From Planctomycetota bacterium (GTDB lineage Bacteria; Planctomycetota; UBA1135), in assembly GCA_018671175.1 (NCBI GenBank), contig JABHIE010000021.1:1-43563 (forward strand): a stretch of 43,563 bases of DNA. The letters are read 5' to 3'. The notes beneath the pieces were generated by a model that saw only the letters and a program-made list of their open reading frames with translations, had not been told where the DNA came from and searched no databases. Of this stretch, positions 2,679 to 43,563 are shown in pieces (positions within the stretch are counted from its first letter, which is position 1; every line of letters starts with the position of its first letter). A program made the position numbers and the translations under genes.

Positions 2679-4016
2679 TTAATCTTCTTGACCTAATGTT
2701 TCGTCGTTGGGCATGCCGTATGAACAGAAGTTCATGAAAAACAGCACGATGCCCATTGTGAAAAGTGCCGCAGCAATGACCAAGCCGGCGGCGTGAACAT
2801 GAAGTTGCTCTTGGACTTCGAGGAAATCCATGCCACCTTTACGCTCAAGGTAAACCTGCACAACACCCATGACTGCAAACGCGCCGACCATGCCGGTCAT
2901 GCCAATGTTGCTAGTCCAGAATGCCCACTCGGCTTTCCAGTCGGTGTAACGCTTGCGGCCTGTAACTTGCGGAAGAACATAAGCAATCATCGCGAGGATC
3001 AACATTGCATACGCACCCCAAAAAGCCATGTGCCCGTGCATACCCGTGATGAGCGTGCCGTGCGTGTACATGTTTACGGATGGAAGCGTGTGCGCAAAAC
3101 CCAAGAAGCCAGCGCCGACGAATGACATCACGGCACAGCCGATCGTCCAGGTCAGAGCGATTTTGTTTGGATGCTTACGACCACCTTTTCTCGCCATCGC
3201 AATCGCGTACATCGCCATCCCGAGGAAAGCTAGCGGCTCAAGCGCGGAGAAAATACCACCAATCATCAACCAGTAGCCTGGGGCGCCTGTGTAGTAATAG
3301 TGGTGACCCGTGCCGAGGATGCCCGAAAGGAAAGTGAAGCCAACAATGATGTAGAGCCACTTTTCGATAACCTCGCGGTCAACGCCCGTGAGCTTAATCA
3401 AGAGGTAAGACATGATGGCGCCCATGATGAGCTCCCAAACGCCTTCTACCCAGAGGTGAACTACCCACCAGCGGAAGAATGAATCGAAAACAATGTTGTC
3501 GAAAGTAATCATGCCAGGCAGATACAAAAGTGCTGCCGACAGCAAACCAAAGAACAGCACTGAGGCCGTCGTTGTAATGCGCTTGCCTTTCCAGATGGTC
3601 ATCAGCAAGTTGAAGAGGAACGCTAAAACATTAACAACAACAAGGAAGTCAAGCTCGCGCGGAATCTCAAGGAACTTACGGCCTTCCCACCAGTTGAGGT
3701 GGAAGCCAATGACGGCTGTCACGCCTACGAGAAGTAGGGATGCAAGTTGAACCCATGCTAATTTAATCGACCAAAGCTCTCGGCCAGATTCTTCTGGAAT
3801 GATCCAGTATGCCGCGCCCATGAAACCCGCGAGGAGCCAAACGACGAGCAGGTTTTTGTGAGTAGCGGAAGCTGCATTAAACGGAATGATGTCATGCAGG
3901 CCGTCCATGCCCATGTGCGCGAAGCCCATGATGAAGCCGTAGACCAATTGCAAAAGGAACAAGCCCATGCAAGCGGCGAAAAAGTACCAGGCGATTTTTT
4001 GTGATTTGTATTTCAT
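2679..4016 (-). CDS. norB: NorB, catalytic subunit of cytochrome c-type nitric oxide reductase
   Basis: This 445-residue, twelve-helix haem-copper oxidase relative reduces two NO to N2O at a haem b3/non-haem iron centre in the inner membrane. Ligands known from cNOR structures can be seen: the low-spin haem histidine in ATHKNLLV, the FeB histidine and glutamate in HLWVEGVWE, the histidine pair in GTGHHYYYTG and the haem histidines in HVHAAGLV. The length matches cNOR NorB; there is no N-terminal extension as in the quinol-oxidising qNOR, which agrees with the separate norC upstream. It is 12 bases downstream of norC in the same operon. Confidence 0.97.
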   Translation of the reverse strand: MKYKSQKIAWYFFAACMGLFLLQLVYGFIMGFAHMGMDGLHDIIPFNAASATHKNLLVVWLLAGFMGAAYWIIPEESGRELWSIKLAWVQLASLLLVGVTAVIGFHLNWWEGRKFLEIPRELDFLVVVNVLAFLFNLLMTIWKGKRITTTASVLFFGLLSAALLYLPGMITFDNIVFDSFFRWWVVHLWVEGVWELIMGAIMSYLLIKLTGVDREVIEKWLYIIVGFTFLSGILGTGHHYYYTGAPGYWLMIGGIFSALEPLAFLGMAMYAIAMARKGGRKHPNKIALTWTIGCAVMSFVGAGFLGFAHTLPSVNMYTHGTLITGMHGHMAFWGAYAMLILAMIAYVLPQVTGRKRYTDWKAEWAFWTSNIGMTGMVGAFAVMGVVQVYLERKGGMDFLEVQEQLHVHAAGLVIAAALFTMGIVLFFMNFCSYGMPNDETLGQED

Positions 4017-5433: not shown

Positions 5434-7047
5434 GTGAAATCAATCTCTCCCGAAGAATTTAACTTGCTCATGCGTCTTTCTGTAGACCTGAGCTCCTCAC
5501 TCGATTCCGACGACCGCTTTCAGCGACTGGTCGACATCGTAACCGAGGCTCTGCCTGTAGATGCCGTTACGGTTTTGAGTCTCGATGACGACTTGCTAAC
5601 CCCTGTAGCCCAGCACGGGCTGAGCGATGACGCAATGGGGCGTAGTTTTCTTATTTCGCAACACCCGCGCCTTGCACGCATTTGCGAGGCAGGCAAGCCA
5701 GTGGTTTTTGAGCCTGATTGCGAGATGCCCGACCCCTTCGACGGCCTCCTTGCTGCCGCACCTAATCTGAACGAACACATTCATGCTTGCGCGGGATGCC
5801 CGCTTTGGGTGCACGAACGCCTCACGGGAGTGCTGACGCTTGACGCTCTTAAACCCGACGCGTTTGCAAAGATGAGTCGACCATTTCTTGACGCACTCGG
5901 CGCGCTAACTGGCGCGACGCTTCACACTTCTTTGCTAATGCAAGCACTTGAGCAGAGTGCGAAGCGCAGTGGGCTGATTGCGCAAAATTTAATGCAAAGC
6001 GACCGCGCGCGACACGGATCTTACCTTATTGGTAGCGGAGATGTGATGAAGCAGCTTAAAGACGAAATACGCATGGTTGGTGGCTCGCAACTACCCGTCT
6101 TAATTACGGGCGAAACAGGGTCGGGTAAAGAGTTGGCCGTGCAAATGTTACATAAAAGTTCACAGCGGGCCGACCGCACGCTAGTCTATGTAAACTGCGC
6201 CGCATTGCCCGAAACCGTGGCGGAAAGTGAGCTTTTCGGTCATGCCGCCGGTGCGTTTACGGACGCGAAAAACACTCGGCTCGGCAAGTTTCAAATTGCA
6301 GATGGCGCGACTTTGTTTTTAGATGAAATAGGTGAATTACCGCTTTCAGTTCAAGCCAAGCTTTTACGCGTTTTGCAATTCGGCGAGATTCAACGCATGG
6401 GTAGCGATGACCTGAGTCGAGTTGATGTTCGCGTTTTTGCCGCAACAAACCGCGACCTAAATGAAGAAGTTAAAGCCGGGCGTTTCCGCGCGGACTTGCT
6501 GCATCGACTTGATGTTTGCCGGCTGCATGTACCGGCACTTCATGAACACGCGGACGACATCCCTGCGATTGCTGGGCACTTTTGTGATACCGCACGCCTC
6601 CAACTTGGTTCGGGGCGCATTCACCTCACTCCGCAGGCGCGCGAAGCATTGCAAGAATACTCTTGGCCAGGGAATGTCCGAGAATTGGAAAATGTGATTT
6701 CCAGGGCAACCCTGCGTGCTGCGGCTCGTGGTGAGAGGGGCGCGCCTATTTTGCTCAGTGCCCGCGATCTCGGGGAAGACTTTTCCGTGGCTCGTCAGGC
6801 AAATCAAAACGCGGGCGTGCAATTGGCCGCGCCGCTCGAGGCGGAAGGAGTTGCAGCGAATCTCGAGACTCAAACGATGACCGAAAACCTAGTCCTTGGC
6901 GACCTCAAAGAACTTACGACCAACTTCCAAATTCAATTAATCCAACGCGCTATCTCAAAACAAGCTGGGAATCGGTCTGCCGCGGCACGCGAGCTCGGGA
7001 TGCACCGAAGCAACCTTCACCGGTTAATGCAGCGGCTTGAAATGTAA
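5434..7047 (+). CDS. norR: NorR, NO-responsive sigma-54 activator with a GAFTDA variant motif
   Basis: This 537-residue protein aligns along its length with NorR: an N-terminal GAF domain (about 15-170), a central AAA+ domain (about 200-440) and a C-terminal Fis-type helix-turn-helix (about 495-535). Walker A is G226-ETGSGK232 and Walker B is LFLDE ending near 298. D103, in PDPFDG, corresponds to the iron ligand D99 of E. coli NorR, and the HPRL arginine (E. coli R75) is kept, but the position of R81 is Glu. The sigma-54-contact loop reads GAFTDA (273-278) instead of GAFTGA. The start is GTG at 5434, directly after an inverted repeat, so autoregulation is plausible. It is divergent from the nor operon. 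Confidence 0.93.
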   Translation: MKSISPEEFNLLMRLSVDLSSSLDSDDRFQRLVDIVTEALPVDAVTVLSLDDDLLTPVAQHGLSDDAMGRSFLISQHPRLARICEAGKPVVFEPDCEMPDPFDGLLAAAPNLNEHIHACAGCPLWVHERLTGVLTLDALKPDAFAKMSRPFLDALGALTGATLHTSLLMQALEQSAKRSGLIAQNLMQSDRARHGSYLIGSGDVMKQLKDEIRMVGGSQLPVLITGETGSGKELAVQMLHKSSQRADRTLVYVNCAALPETVAESELFGHAAGAFTDAKNTRLGKFQIADGATLFLDEIGELPLSVQAKLLRVLQFGEIQRMGSDDLSRVDVRVFAATNRDLNEEVKAGRFRADLLHRLDVCRLHVPALHEHADDIPAIAGHFCDTARLQLGSGRIHLTPQAREALQEYSWPGNVRELENVISRATLRAAARGERGAPILLSARDLGEDFSVARQANQNAGVQLAAPLEAEGVAANLETQTMTENLVLGDLKELTTNFQIQLIQRAISKQAGNRSAAARELGMHRSNLHRLMQRLEM

Positions 7048-7091: not shown

Positions 7092-7586
7092 ATGACACAC
7101 CAAATCCTTGTTCTTCTCCACCTCATTGGTGCGATCTTCTTCGTCGGCGCTATTGCGCTTGAGGTTTTGTGCCTCGACTCCATGCGCAAACACCTCGGCG
7201 AAGAGATGTTCCAAAAGGTCGAATTCTTGCTTTTCCGCCGAATTAAGCGCGTTTACCCGCTCTTTGTTCTGCCGATGTATGCGATTGGTTTTCATTTCTA
7301 TTTCCAATACGCACCCGACAGCTGGGAGCTTTACACCCAATGGCTCGGCACGCATTTTGGCTCAATGCTGACCCTTAAAGCGATTTTGGCAATTGTGCTT
7401 TTAGGTGTTTTCCTGACCTCGCCCTTTACATTTATGCGACCGCAACCCAACAAACTGAAGCACTTCTTTGTGATTACGGGCGATGCAAAAGACATGAAAA
7501 CCGAGCATTTTAGATTCATTCATTATGGCGTCTTTACGCTGGGGCTGATTATTGTCATCCTCGCAAAAATGATGTTCGTGGGTTAA
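7092..7586 (+). CDS. Four-helix integral membrane protein in the NO-reduction cluster (CopD/DUF2269-like)
   Basis: The 164-residue protein has about four hydrophobic helices (near 5-25, 50-70, 90-112 and 142-160). A histidine in the first helix (LLHLIGAIFF) and one before the last helix (FIHYGVFTLG) are placed like haem b ligands of CopD-type membrane proteins. I do not recognise a named family with certainty. It is followed after 5 bases by norE and then norF, so it probably belongs to a small operon supporting NO reductase or respiratory electron flow. The role is inferred only from position. Confidence 0.6.
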   Translation: MTHQILVLLHLIGAIFFVGAIALEVLCLDSMRKHLGEEMFQKVEFLLFRRIKRVYPLFVLPMYAIGFHFYFQYAPDSWELYTQWLGTHFGSMLTLKAILAIVLLGVFLTSPFTFMRPQPNKLKHFFVITGDAKDMKTEHFRFIHYGVFTLGLIIVILAKMMFVG

Positions 7587-39403: not shown

Positions 39404-41605
39404 ATGACCGATGTGTGTGAACCTGCCCCTGCCAGCAACGACGAAAATGTCAGTGCTGTCAAAAAATACTTTCAAGACTTTAAAGTTTTAAAAGAAACCA
39501 AACGCGAATATTGGGGCCTACAGCTCGTCAATATTCTCGACTGCCTAGCCTACTTTGCGATGTTCAATATCGCGACCGTTACGCTCTCGCAAGACTTTGG
39601 TTTTTCCGATGAAATGGCCGGCTGGATTTACGCGCTGTTTTCCGGGCTAACGACGATTTTCCTTTTCTTCTCGGGCGTCTTCACCGATTGGCTCGGCATT
39701 AAAAAGGCGCTGATTGTCGCAATGCTTGGCTTGGTGCTTTGCCGCGCGGGTGTCGTGGTCGCTGAGCAACTTGACGAGCCCATCCGACTCAACGAAACCC
39801 ATGCGGTCGCTGAGCTTTTTGACGGCCGAGGTTTGGGCGCGATTGAAGGCAGCAACGATTTAATCATCACGGGCCACAACGATGTTACTTTTGAGGTCGA
39901 CCTCTACGGGGCGGCCACAATCGGAGATGTCTTGCAGCGCATTGATTCGGCGAGCGGCAACGACGGCGCGATTCGTGCGAGCATTGCCCCTGGCTGGGTG
40001 AGTCTGCGCCTCGAAGACACCATTCAGGGCGATTCTTATGGTGGCATTAAAGTTACAGGCACCGCGTCTAACCCCGACATGGCCAAGCGATTGGGTTTGC
40101 AAGACGCGCAAGACGGCGACGGCCCGCTTGACGGCAAGCGTTTGGTTTCTGATTTAAATGGTGTGCTGGTTGCCAAACTAAATCAGGGCGATGGCCTGTC
40201 GGGTGGTGATTCGATTCACATCACCGACGGCTGGGGCAACGAAGGCACGATTTCGGGCTTGAGCAAGATGGTTTATGTCAGCGATCTGCGGCAGCATATC
40301 GAAGATAGCGCCAAATCAGCGGGCCTAAAAGTCAATGTCAATCTCAATGTCCCCGGCAATGGTTTAATGATTTCGAATCACGCCAAACAGCTCGGCGAAG
40401 AGTTGAGCGGCCTTAGCATCGACGGCGACGCGGCCGATGCTCTTGGCATTTTGCGCACAGGCGATGATGCGACGAATGATTTAGTCGCTGGCGAAAACAT
40501 CAAAGAAAACAAATTCCGCAGTTGGCTCGTGATTGGCCTGCTCGCTTTGATGGCTCCTTTCATGGCCATGCTCCAGACTGTTTTTCAGGCCGGCAACAAA
40601 CGGTTTACGACAAAGCGGTCGCGCGGCGCGGGCTTTAACTTGTGGTACCTCTTTATGAATGTCGGCGCGGCTGGCGGTGGTTTCTTGATTGACATTCTTT
40701 ACATCAAGATGGATTTGCCGCTTTACCATGTGTTTACTTTTGGCTTGGTCACGGGCATTTTGAGTTTGGTTTCCATCATGCTCTTCATTCGCAACACCGA
40801 TCAGCTGCTAACTCCCGAAGAGGAAGCCGAGCTGGCCGCCGCACCACCGGCCGAAGAAAAAGAGAAACTCAGCCCATTTCAAATTGCAAAGGCTGTGCTT
40901 TCCGAAAAGGCCTTTTGGCGCTTCACAACACTCATCACTTTGCTTTTGGGAGTGCGAGCGGTGTTCCTTTATCTCGGTTTGCTCTTTCCAAAGTTTTGGT
41001 ATCGAGTCATCGGGCCAGAAGCCAAAGTTGGTTTGATGCAGGCGTTTAACCCCGTACTTGTCATTATTGGTTTGATTGTGGTGATTCCGCTTTTGCAAAA
41101 ATTCAATGTTTACAAAATGTTAGTTTTTGGCGCGTTGATTACATCGATTTCGATGTTTATCCCTGCGATTCCGTTTACGGCTAGCTTGGGTTTGTCGATT
41201 TCCGATTTCACCTACATCACGACAGGGCTGTTCTTGCTGGTCTTGACGGTCGGTGAGTTAATTTGGTCACCGCGACTAAGCGAATACACGGCAGCGATTG
41301 CGCCCGAGGGCCAAGAGGGCACTTACCTTGGCTTGACGATGGTGCCTTACTTCTTGGCCAAGCTGATTATCAGTGCATACTCCGGCACACTGCTCGCGAG
41401 ATACTGCGCCGAGTCAGCACCCGGCGAGCCAAATGTTGGCGAACGGATCGCCGCAGGCAATGTGGCCTTTACCGATTCGCCCTACTTCATGTGGGCAATT
41501 CTCGGCACGGTCGCACTGGTCGGCACACTCGCCGCCATTTTCGGGAAGTCTTGGTTCACGCAGGGCGCTTCGTTTGATAAAGAAGACGAGGCTCAAACGG
41601 CCTAA
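39404..41605 (+). CDS. MFS transporter with a large flagellin-IN-like insert
   Basis: This 733-residue protein has about three N-terminal helices (residues 38-122, with SGVFTDWLGIKKALIVAMLG, the typical MFS loop) and the remaining helices after about 365. The later part includes FNLWYLFMNVGAAGGGFLID, which recalls peptide (POT) transporters. Between the two lies about 240 residues of soluble, Asp/Gly-rich sequence (about 125-365). It holds two repeats of the form VDLYGAATIGDVLQRI...VSLRLEDT...AKRLGLQ (about 164-235) and ITDGWGNEGTI...DLRQHIED...ALGIL (about 271-350), resembling the IN motifs of flagellin hook and cap proteins. If the topology holds, the insert faces the periplasm. The substrate is unknown. 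Confidence 0.85.
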   Translation: MTDVCEPAPASNDENVSAVKKYFQDFKVLKETKREYWGLQLVNILDCLAYFAMFNIATVTLSQDFGFSDEMAGWIYALFSGLTTIFLFFSGVFTDWLGIKKALIVAMLGLVLCRAGVVVAEQLDEPIRLNETHAVAELFDGRGLGAIEGSNDLIITGHNDVTFEVDLYGAATIGDVLQRIDSASGNDGAIRASIAPGWVSLRLEDTIQGDSYGGIKVTGTASNPDMAKRLGLQDAQDGDGPLDGKRLVSDLNGVLVAKLNQGDGLSGGDSIHITDGWGNEGTISGLSKMVYVSDLRQHIEDSAKSAGLKVNVNLNVPGNGLMISNHAKQLGEELSGLSIDGDAADALGILRTGDDATNDLVAGENIKENKFRSWLVIGLLALMAPFMAMLQTVFQAGNKRFTTKRSRGAGFNLWYLFMNVGAAGGGFLIDILYIKMDLPLYHVFTFGLVTGILSLVSIMLFIRNTDQLLTPEEEAELAAAPPAEEKEKLSPFQIAKAVLSEKAFWRFTTLITLLLGVRAVFLYLGLLFPKFWYRVIGPEAKVGLMQAFNPVLVIIGLIVVIPLLQKFNVYKMLVFGALITSISMFIPAIPFTASLGLSISDFTYITTGLFLLVLTVGELIWSPRLSEYTAAIAPEGQEGTYLGLTMVPYFLAKLIISAYSGTLLARYCAESAPGEPNVGERIAAGNVAFTDSPYFMWAILGTVALVGTLAAIFGKSWFTQGASFDKEDEAQTA

Positions 41606-41627
41606 TCGATTCAAGGAGCTCGATTTT

Positions 41628-41659
41628 TTTGAGGGGCGTTGCTTGCAACGCCCCTCAAA
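41628..41659. repeat. Perfect inverted repeat between MFS gene and DGR
   Basis: TTTGAGGGGCGTTGC (41628-41642) and its exact complement (41645-41659) are separated by two bases. The stem lies 23 bases after the MFS stop and downstream of the DGR template on the other strand. Seven T residues end inside the left edge on the plus strand, so neither strand shows the hairpin-then-T-run of a standard terminator. It may block transcription in both directions or mark the end of the template RNA. Confidence 0.6.
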
Positions 41660-41805
41660 TGCTATCGGCCAAAAAAGACGGTGCGGTTTTCGAATCGGCT
41701 ATCCGGCTCGACCTACTCACTACACCGCCTTGAATTCGGATTTGCCCTCAATGAGGGGCTGGACGAGCGCCCTGTTCATTGTCTGCCATCCGGCTAGACA
41801 TTGGG

Positions 41806-41930
41806 CTGAGAGCAAGCGCAAGCCGATGTTGTTGTTGCGGTTGTTCGGGTTGTTGTTGTTGCGATTCGCCGAACGCAAGTTGACGGCAGAATTGTTCCAA
41901 CTCCCGCCGCGGATCACACGGTTCGAGCCT
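41806..41930 (-). repeat. DGR template repeat (TR)
   Basis: Read on the minus strand, this segment encodes RVIRGGSWNNSAVN followed by an Asn-rich run and IGLRLLSA, with 13 Asn codons (11 AAC, 2 AAT). This is the signature of a DGR template whose adenines are copied with errors. The matching variable repeat at 43511-43563 aligns over its visible 53 bases with 12 differences, all at template adenines. The 3' end (41806) is fixed by the alignment; the 5' end (near 41930) is estimated from protein homology, because the rest of the variable repeat is beyond the window. The TR overlaps the last codons of the reverse transcriptase gene. Confidence 0.93.
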
Positions 41931-42933
41931 TGGGGCGTGCCCATTCCGATTCTAGCAAGCATTTCTCTCGAAAACGGAAAGACCCCGCTCTTTTCACAAA
42001 ATCTATCATGGGCTCTAAACGAGTCGCCAACTCTTCTTCTGAACAATCTCCTGCATAAAACCTCTCAAACAATTTTTTCGTCTTGCGCCGGAATCTATCT
42101 CGCGAGCGCCTAGATAAACCGACACGGTTCGGGAATATCCTATACCCCAAAAAGGTCAAACCACGCTGCATCCGATTCAAGCGAGCGTATTTCAAATCCA
42201 AGTGCAATTCCTTTTTTAGGAAAATCTGAACAGCATCACGCACTTCGAGCAACTCGTCTTTTGAGTCGCCCCAAACCACAAAATCATCCATATAACGCAC
42301 ATAGCGTTTTTTTCGCAACCTCTCTTTGATAAAGCGGTCGCACCGGGCCAGATAATGATTCGCAAAATACTGGCTTGTCAAATTGCCAATCGGAACACCT
42401 TTTCCTGCTGCCGTTTGATAAGTGGCCAAAACTGAAGTCAGTAACTGCAAAACAACCGGGTCTTTAAAGCGGTGCGCAAAAGAACGATTCAAAACCGCGT
42501 GGTCGATATTGTTGAAGTATTTACGGATATCCATCTGCAAATACCACTTTGATTTCTTCGCATACTTTTTCGCTAATCGCATCGCGCCATCTAAACCGCG
42601 GCCAACCCGGCAGGCGCAACTCTCATCGATCTGGTATTTTTCAAAAATCGGCCCACAGATATTCAGCAAAGCATGGTGCCCCACATGAGAGCGAAAGGGT
42701 GCAGCATAAATCGCTCGCGGCTTTGGATCTTGCACCTGAAAGACAAAGTACTCACCCCAATCCACTTTCCCAGCCCGCAGTTCTTGGCCTAACCGCCACA
42801 ATTCATCATCAAGGTTTTCATGAAAACGAATCACCTCAGGTTTTGCTCGCCTACCACGACACGCTTTATAAAAAGCAAGGCGCATGTTGTCATAGTCGCA
42901 AATACCCTCAATCAGATTTCCGGCTCTCTTCAT
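41914..42933 (-). CDS. DGR reverse transcriptase
   Basis: This 339-residue reverse transcriptase has motif A with D135 in MDIRKYFNNID, motif B as I182-G-N-L-T-S187-Q188 and the catalytic box Y214-M-D216-D217. The IGxxxSQ form of motif B separates DGR enzymes from group II intron enzymes, which usually have QGxxxSP. Upstream is FRSHVGHHALLNICGPIFE, and downstream LTFLGYRIFPNRVGLSRRSR, typical of the thumb region. There is no maturase or endonuclease domain. The enzyme makes error-prone cDNA from the template RNA and transfers it to the variable repeat. The start ATG 42933 overlaps the HRDC gene stop by 26 bases, and the 3' end runs into the template repeat. Confidence 0.96.
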   Translation of the reverse strand: MKRAGNLIEGICDYDNMRLAFYKACRGRRAKPEVIRFHENLDDELWRLGQELRAGKVDWGEYFVFQVQDPKPRAIYAAPFRSHVGHHALLNICGPIFEKYQIDESCACRVGRGLDGAMRLAKKYAKKSKWYLQMDIRKYFNNIDHAVLNRSFAHRFKDPVVLQLLTSVLATYQTAAGKGVPIGNLTSQYFANHYLARCDRFIKERLRKKRYVRYMDDFVVWGDSKDELLEVRDAVQIFLKKELHLDLKYARLNRMQRGLTFLGYRIFPNRVGLSRRSRDRFRRKTKKLFERFYAGDCSEEELATRLEPMIDFVKRAGSFRFREKCLLESEWARPKARTV

Positions 42934-43372
42934 CCGATACTACTTTTAAAAAGCTCTCGCCAAATTTTTCAATACTCTTCTCGCCAAAGTCTTTGATTTT
43001 TTTCAAGTCCGCCACGGTCTTGGGGCGGTCTTCAGCCATGCTTGCTATTTGATGGTTATAAGCCACATTCCACATGGACATACCTTCTGCCTTGGCTAGT
43101 TCATTTCGCTTGTCGCGCAAAGTTGAATAAAGAGCAAAATCTTTGTCCGACAAAACTTCTCTGTAATCAATCGTTTCTTTTTTCTTTTTTCCGATTGTCT
43201 TGATTTTCCCGCCAAGCATTTCCTCGATGCAATACGACCAATAGGATTCGCCAGCATCTTGCACAAGCTCTTTCCGCACATTCACGATACTGCGCGATCG
43301 CAAGAAGTGGTTAAGCTCCTCTTCTAATTCCGCATTGCCTTTTGCAGGTATGTAAAAAGTATGAAATTGCAT
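42908..43372 (-). CDS. HRDC-domain DGR accessory protein
   Basis: This 154-residue protein has a mixed alpha/beta N-terminal part (about 1-70, starting MQFHTFYIPAKGNAELEEEL) and a C-terminal HRDC-like domain (about 75-145): ALYSTLRDKRNELAKAEGMS, WNVAYNHQIASMAEDRPKTV and DLKKIKDFGEKSIEKFGESF. HRDC domains bind nucleic acids in RecQ helicases and RNase D. HRDC proteins are known as accessory factors in some DGRs where the Avd protein is absent, and no Avd gene is seen here. It lies between the target gene and the reverse transcriptase and overlaps the latter by 26 bases. The region looks more A+T-rich than the surrounding genes. Confidence 0.85.
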   Translation of the reverse strand: MQFHTFYIPAKGNAELEEELNHFLRSRSIVNVRKELVQDAGESYWSYCIEEMLGGKIKTIGKKKKETIDYREVLSDKDFALYSTLRDKRNELAKAEGMSMWNVAYNHQIASMAEDRPKTVADLKKIKDFGEKSIEKFGESFLKVVSDEESRKSD

Positions 43373-43396
43373 GAAATTTAGTGGGCCTTGCGTTCC

Positions 43397-43471
43397 GGCG
43401 CGAATGGAGACTTGCGGCGGGCGTGTCGCCGGCTGTGGCCGGCGGCCCTTGCAATTGTCTCCATTCGCGCC
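43397..43471. repeat. Hairpin downstream of the DGR target gene
   Basis: A perfect 15-bp inverted repeat (43397-43411 with 43457-43471) encloses 45 bases that can fold further: TTGC/GCAA next to the stem and GCCGGC-TGTG-GCCGGC inside. It begins 31 bases after the target stop codon on the minus strand and 39 bases from the end of the variable repeat. Hairpins or cruciforms just past the variable repeat promote retrohoming in the Bordetella phage DGR. No T-run follows on the minus strand, so a simple terminator is less likely. Confidence 0.7.
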
Positions 43472-43502
43472 TGCACTTGTTTCTTGTTCTGGTTCAGCCC
43501 AA

Positions 43503-43563
43503 TCAATGAACTGAGAGCAAGCGCAAGCCGACGGAGTTGCCGCGGCCGTACGGGGCGCTGTAG
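43503..43563 (-). CDS. 3' end of the DGR target gene (5' part beyond window)
   Basis: Only the last 19 sense codons, the stop and one base are visible. They read YSAPYGRGNSVGLRLLSVH and then TGA. The template version of the same stretch is NNNPNNRNNNIGLRLLSA, so Pro, Arg and the GLRLLS tail are fixed while Asn positions have become Tyr, Ser, Ala, Tyr, Gly, Gly, Asn and Ser. By comparison with the full template, the target should end in a formylglycine-generating-enzyme-like C-type lectin fold, where the changed residues form the binding surface. The identity of the rest of the protein cannot be seen. Confidence 0.85.
   Translation of the reverse strand, partial: YSAPYGRGNSVGLRLLSVH
43511..43563 (-). 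repeat. DGR variable repeat (VR), partial
   Basis: The segment aligns without gaps to 41806-41858. The first 21 bases from the 3' end (43511-43531) are identical and would include the initiation-of-mutagenic-homology region. Of the next 32 bases, 12 differ and all differences fall on template adenines (minus strand), with changes to G, C and T. Homology stops at 43511, where the two flanks diverge. The VR continues past the right window edge. Confidence 0.95.

Follow-up and report, generated by a model that had tools for sequence, protein, structure and literature searches.

The closest described systems to the locus reported here are the diversity-generating retroelements (DGRs) of Bordetella phage BPP-1 and of Treponema denticola. 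The BPP-1 DGR combines a reverse transcriptase (RT) with a template repeat (TR) and a variable repeat (VR) that share the sequence of the VR 3' end, and its mutagenesis is specific to adenines. Its accessory protein is Avd (PMC12875486), and a hairpin built on 8-bp inverted repeats follows the VR (PMC3240598). Downstream of its TR lies a folded spacer that brings in bRT-Avd and contains the internal adenine that primes cDNA synthesis (PMC12875486). In the Treponema denticola DGR, an HRDC accessory gene overlaps the RT gene and is reported to be situated between the TR and the RT (PMC4891356). Remote targets are recorded for other DGRs (PMC10907252).

The window analysed here, the 43,563 nt of contig JABHIE010000021.1 (contig C2 of 36) in the Planctomycetota assembly GCA_018671175.1 (2,386,131 bases, 89% complete), ends in what is almost certainly a chromosomal DGR of the HRDC-accessory type. 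It resembles the BPP-1 DGR in its RT family, in adenine-specific mutagenesis, in the TR/VR pair with its shared VR 3' sequence, and in having both a hairpin after the VR and a structured spacer 3' of the TR. Unlike BPP-1, in which the TR is annotated before the RT, the window has a TR that follows the RT gene and overlaps its stop codon, an HRDC protein rather than Avd, a hairpin of about 85 nt, and in its spacer an RNA element that was not detected in that of BPP-1. With Treponema denticola it shares the overlap of HRDC and RT genes, whereas its own order is target/VR, HRDC, RT, TR. There are known precedents for the DGR itself as well as for its HRDC accessory, its hairpin and remote VRs, and what the window adds is one well-preserved case, with several putative targets, from an uncultured planctomycete.

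Layout of the locus and comparison of its repeats

Read along the minus strand from the contig end at 43563, the locus runs from the VR through the hairpin, the HRDC gene, the RT gene and the TR to a spacer that holds the RNA element. Because the contig ends at 43563, the VR is represented by its 3' part (43511-43563, minus strand) and the remainder was not assembled. The TR, about 124 nt long (41806-41929, minus strand, 5' end approximate), was delimited by alignment with the VRs. In one correction to the first-pass annotation, the TR is not a free-standing unit: its 5' end overlaps the stop codon of the RT gene (41914-42933, minus strand).

An ungapped alignment places the 53 bases of the window VR against the 3'-terminal part of the TR (41806-41858) and shows 12 differences. 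Our recount agreed with the first-pass annotation that all 12 fall at template adenines (adenine makes up 18 of the 53 template bases; hypergeometric p = 7e-8). In codon frame the TR reads NNNNPNNRNNNIGLRLLS and the VR YSAPYGRGNSVGLRLLS, and comparison of the two gives the changes from AAC to TAC, AGC, GCC, GGC and TCC that had been described. The alignment of a full VR with the TR, which had been proposed as a check, was run on a copy found on contig C9. Over 125 aligned bases there were 15 mismatches, 14 of them at adenines (p = 8e-9), so the many non-adenine mismatches that would count against a DGR are not present; the single exception is a T-to-G change adjoining an A-to-G change. For both VR fragments together, 26 of the 27 differences from the TR lie at adenines. 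A chance repeat was rejected on the strength of this restriction in each VR. The last 20 nt of the TR (41806-41825, minus strand) are identical in the VR copies on C2 (43511-43530), C9 and C27, and beyond them the flanks of TR and VR diverge, as at an IMH*-like sequence.

Between the repeats, as the first-pass annotation had stated, lies an RT (339 aa) with the motif IGNLTSQ at residue 182 and YMDD at residue 214. It matches Pfam RVT_1 (E 2.1e-17), and its best PDB match is 8ub7 (E 5.6e-44), which we take to be the RT of the BPP-1 DGR, with a group II intron RT behind at 2.1e-14. The protein is 35% identical to the annotated BPP-1 brt. Judged by its best PDB match and these motifs, the RT is of DGR type. 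A phage origin of the locus was set aside as a matter that annotation, in which the named window genes are those of an open reading frame list plus one MFS transporter, does not settle; no relative was confirmed in IMG/VR, and the related RTs of 123 phage records are all less than 60% identical.

The HRDC gene (42908-43372, minus strand; 154 aa) overlaps the RT gene by 26 bp, and the earlier identification of its product held up in Pfam (HRDC, PF00570, E 4.8e-15). An AlphaFold2 model (mean pLDDT 81.5, pTM 0.50) consists of an N-terminal beta-alpha-beta-beta domain and a C-terminal HRDC domain. The best PDB matches of the protein are HRDC domains, and Foldseek returned one match at E below 0.001, a RecQ HRDC domain that aligns to the HRDC half. 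In a family alignment of 14 relatives and 162 columns, no Pfam family other than HRDC matched all 14 members. With E values up to 1 allowed, an iterated HMM started from BPP-1 Avd picked up accessory frames in other loci, 32 in all, and the window protein was absent from these. The domain composition of the model, the PDB matches to HRDC domains and the lack of an Avd HMM match rule out a disguised Avd; the HRDC protein presumably does Avd's job. At six other loci (L054, L050, L056, L099, L104 and L112), tblastn found HRDC matches farther upstream of the RT, with E values between 4e-10 and 6e-7. An Avd-like frame stands next to the RT in all of these except L056, and some DGRs may, to judge from these frames, carry both HRDC and Avd.

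On the far side of the DGR from the contig end, the neighbouring gene (39404-41605) encodes a 733-aa MFS transporter. Residues of about 125-375 of this protein (39776-40528) matched no Pfam family and, by eye, seem to us to resemble flagellin-type repeats. The interval between the MFS gene and the DGR contains a strong inverted repeat with T-runs (41622-41660), which by eye looks like a two-way terminator.

Target gene, hairpin and VR copies in the genome

The first-pass annotation had predicted a C-type-lectin/FGE-like target outside the window. Used as a query against the same genome, the TR matched a full VR on contig C9 (9061-9184), in the last codons of a 344-aa gene that matches Pfam FGE-sulfatase (E 2.4e-57). 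The reading frame of this gene is intact, where a broken one would have counted against the system. Its start is lipoprotein-like by eye, and the product is probably a surface lipoprotein.

Between the VR and the HRDC gene, an inverted repeat (43392-43476, no strand assigned) is predicted from its arms and from DNA folding to form a hairpin or cruciform of about 85 nt. The arms are 20 nt long and 90% complementary, and the DNA fold of 43385-43485 has an energy of -37.4 kcal/mol (z -7.5). C9 matches the window exactly over 95 nt, a stretch that begins with the final 20 nt of the VR and runs to the end of C9 inside the hairpin, and on this identity the predicted target can be linked to the locus: C9 probably carries the target directly upstream of the window, on what are two contigs that are not physically joined. 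Within the VR, the two contigs differ at 12 of 53 sites, and the assembly therefore contains at least two VR variants. The simplest reading is that C9 and the window form one locus, of which two VR variants were present in the population that was sampled; the break in the assembly at this place would then have the same cause.

The hairpin also occurs on contigs C27 and C13, in a form (variant B) that differs from that of the window (variant A) by one compensated C-G to G-C swap in the inner stem and by altered loop letters. At the end of contig C27, the final 21 nt of a VR are followed by variant B, and C13 ends inside variant B. From these ends, at least three VR-hairpin sites can be inferred in the genome.

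Relatives, alternative readings and proposed mechanism

A scan of genome contigs yielded 17 loci with related RTs, with labels that include Planctomycetota, Verrucomicrobia, Acidobacteria, Bernardetiaceae and more. The nearest relative found was locus L028 of the Planctomycetota MAG Arabian9_MAG_53 (the same locus as L046, and present also in genome G012), whose RT is 67% identical and whose HRDC protein is 43% identical to that of the window. Like the window, it has the order target, VR, hairpin, HRDC, RT, TR, with an FGE target and a TR at the RT stop codon. Unlike the window, it has no match to the RNA model (searched as L046 with filters off), and it carries, downstream of its TR, a second copy of part of the HRDC gene: the 98-nt stretches at 5669-5766 and 7421-7518 are 93% identical, which looks like the trace of an earlier duplication of the DGR core. 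The VR of L028 differs from its TR by 17 adenine and 2 non-adenine mismatches. Three remote VR copies elsewhere in that genome have adenine and non-adenine mismatches of 22 and 0, 24 and 4, and 16 and 12, respectively. By eye, the copy with 22 and 0 shares the hairpin region, which was not seen at the two remote VRs on contig C22 of that genome.

Two alternatives bear on how the window and its VR copies are to be read. The VR fragments on C2 and C9 could belong to two separate target genes that share one downstream hairpin variant. The VR-hairpin unit is evidently duplicated in this genome, given the other contig ends on C27 and C13, and the nearest relative does have remote VRs, so this arrangement deserves consideration; it is nonetheless the less probable one, as the 95-nt identity gives C9 the letters of variant A whereas C27 and C13 carry variant B, and no other strong TR match falls in an FGE gene of this genome, which is 89% complete. 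We thus favour a single locus with two VR variants. The DGR could, moreover, be dormant, with its mutations in the past and an RT or target that no longer works, and the uneven adenine restriction of the remote VRs in the relative would fit such decay. We consider dormancy quite unlikely: the RT, HRDC and target frames are intact, the catalytic motifs are kept, 26 of 27 VR-TR differences are at adenines, and the one assembly contains two VR variants.

The claim that the system has been active was borne out by those two variants, and the DGR may be active at present. The earlier description of a DGR core likewise stands, with a DGR-type RT, TR/VR differences confined to adenines apart from a single site, a target of FGE/C-type-lectin type, an accessory gene, a shared VR 3' sequence and a hairpin. 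The points that count against an HRDC-type DGR of this kind are the one non-adenine mismatch in the C9 VR and the remote VRs of the relative that have 12 non-adenine to 16 adenine mismatches and 4 to 24, together with the separation of target and core on two contigs.

By analogy with BPP-1, the region would be transcribed, and the TR and its structured 3' spacer would form the template RNA. The RT, together with the HRDC protein, would copy the TR and misincorporate at adenines. The sequence shared at the VR end and the hairpin beyond the VR would then direct the resulting cDNA to the FGE-fold gene, whose 3' end it would replace.

The RNA element downstream of the TR

Downstream of the TR, the relatives share a stem, an internal loop of [A/C/G]GUA opposite GA[A/G], and an inner stem, often followed by a U-tract. 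In the window, this conserved 3' RNA element of the DGR transcript lies at 41669-41737 (minus strand) and consists of stem 1, AGUA, stem 2, GAA, the return strand of stem 1 and a U-tract; it was located by cmsearch with model R1 and by covariation across relatives. The AGUA/GAA loop seems to us to resemble the bulged-G (loop E, sarcin-ricin) signature. Between the TR and the element, the spacer at 41738-41805 (minus strand) is predicted from its sequence and from RNA folding to form the hairpin UGUCU-A-GCC-GGAU-GGC-AGACA (RNA fold of 41660-41818, z -2.4), and by analogy with BPP-1 it may be the region that primes cDNA synthesis. Across the 28 loci in which both were located, 15 of them seed loci, the element starts 69-132 nt after the TR end (median 95.5).

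Model R1 was built from alignment A1, which has 18 sequences including that of the window. RNAalifold found 14 pairs in A1, 13 of them with compensatory change, and the named 15-pair structure was 91.5% paired, versus 58.5% in shuffled and at most 50.2% in slid alignments. The invariance of GTAG and GA in A1 is a product of construction, because the script that made the seed demanded these letters together with at least 6 stem pairs. The element was therefore tested outward on new genomes and loci, with later rows fitted to the model. Covariation in rows so fitted gave 93.0% of pair cells paired, versus 56.1% shuffled and at most 49.6% slid.

When 392 Planctomycetota genomes were scanned with R1, we obtained 9 matches in 8 genomes, including that of the window; none of the other 8 is in the R1 training set. 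Five matches share a strand with a DGR RT match and follow it at a distance of 262-342 nt. Three have no RT in the DNA examined: a contig-edge near-copy of the L110 spacer, a match with a TR-like repeat just upstream, and an orphan. Loci were also collected by RT protein alone, which among the matches listed gave 30 loci from 40 places, 4 of them already in the set and 26 new (L096-L121). An element match on the same strand at E < 1e-3 was present in 17 of the new loci, and the matched rows covary (93.9% paired, fitted to the model); L120 matched on the opposite strand, L111 reached E 0.064, and the other 7 gave none. With a second model, R2, made from 42 sequences and run with filters off on 8 unmatched or weak loci of this collection, 2 reached E < 0.01 (L115 and L097).

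A scan of the same 392 genomes with R2 returned 16 matches in 14 genomes, 11 of which are in its training set; the window's own match was missed by the strict filters. Eleven of the 16 are beside an RT on the same strand, nine at 236-437 nt after the RT match and two just before the RT frame. Three directly follow a TR-like repeat, in G178 and G292 (neither with an RT in the DNA examined) and in G310 (RT on the other strand), and the remaining two are the contig-edge copy and the orphan already noted. The places outside the training set are G178, G378 twice, G396 and G310 at 3297; three of these adjoin an RT and two follow a TR-like repeat. Among 15 phage DGR loci, namely BPP-1 and 14 from the 30 rows listed for the 123 phage records, three match at E < 0.01, all just before the RT: YPCBV-1 (E 5e-8), Bise (6e-5) and cr55_1 (0.005). 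At that threshold and position, BPP-1 and the 11 other phage loci have no match. With matches lacking in both L046 and the BPP-1 spacer, the element is common but not universal. It is not specific to HRDC-type DGRs, as Avd-type loci have it too, nor to loci in which the TR follows the RT, since in G378 and in phage YPCBV-1 it lies between Avd and RT.

The ends of the internal loop were compared in 26 A4 rows outside R1 training, a count that omits one partial second match in L050. In 23 of these, the first and last loop bases are A/A, G/A or C/G (the exceptions are L103, L112 and L032), and C at the first base is accompanied by G at the last in 6 of 7. The rows were found by a model that rewards GUA and GA and has no pairing between the first and last loop columns. 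A search of Rfam 15 with 10 loci at E up to 1 found no family for the element; the one match (L056, E 0.22) lies away from it. The open-access DGR literature, covered mostly at the level of titles, gave no description of this post-TR RNA element, which may be new.

The position of the element in the region equivalent to the BPP-1 spacer makes docking or definition of the RNA 3' end its likely role, and by this analogy we lean, with modest confidence, towards a docking or 3'-end module of the template RNA. More broadly, we give a slight preference to the hypothesis that a single conserved module (stem 1, [A/G/C]GUA, stem 2, GA[A/G], stem 1) forms the end of many DGR template RNAs in Planctomycetota, Verrucomicrobiota and some phages, whether the system is of HRDC or Avd type and whether its TR precedes or follows the RT. 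On this hypothesis, the module, which was not detected in BPP-1, the prototype behind current views of the mechanism, would dock the RT-accessory complex or set the 3' end of the RNA. A GC-rich stem followed by U, as seen in the window and in many relatives, is also what one would see if the element were simply an intrinsic terminator of transcription and did nothing particular in the template RNA. We regard that explanation as unlikely, since the inner loop is kept beyond the needs of a terminator (three base combinations account for 23 of the 26 A4 rows), some copies lack a U-tract (that of L052 has no T in the 16 nt around its 3' end), and the R1 model, with its 9 matches in 392 genomes, does not match terminators in general. 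As a candidate docking or 3'-end module, a covarying element whose position is tied to the TR, and which occurs with both accessory types and in either gene order, offers a ready test of what DGR template RNAs share and raises the question of how representative the BPP-1 RNA is of other DGRs. A searchable RNA model could, in addition, find DGR RNAs even when the RT is off the contig.

Several individual loci merit mention. The single contig C1 of G378 carries two near-identical DGR copies about 7 Mb apart, L150 (491608) and L156 (7468506), both in the order Avd, TR-like repeat, element, RT. In L122 (G292 C31:76000-84000), a TR-like repeat is followed by the RNA element, and no RT, HRDC or Avd was found in the 8 kb; this is perhaps a decayed or split DGR. 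L088 has a strong match to the RNA model at 1208-1262 (E 3.6e-6), with no RT, HRDC or Avd in the 2.8 kb examined and no TR by eye. Contig C133 of G310 has two copies of the element about 950 nt apart (L120, 2341-2402; L148, 1501-1559), both on the other strand from the RT. A TR-like repeat with the same orientation as the second copy immediately precedes it, so that TR and RT may point in opposite directions in this DGR.
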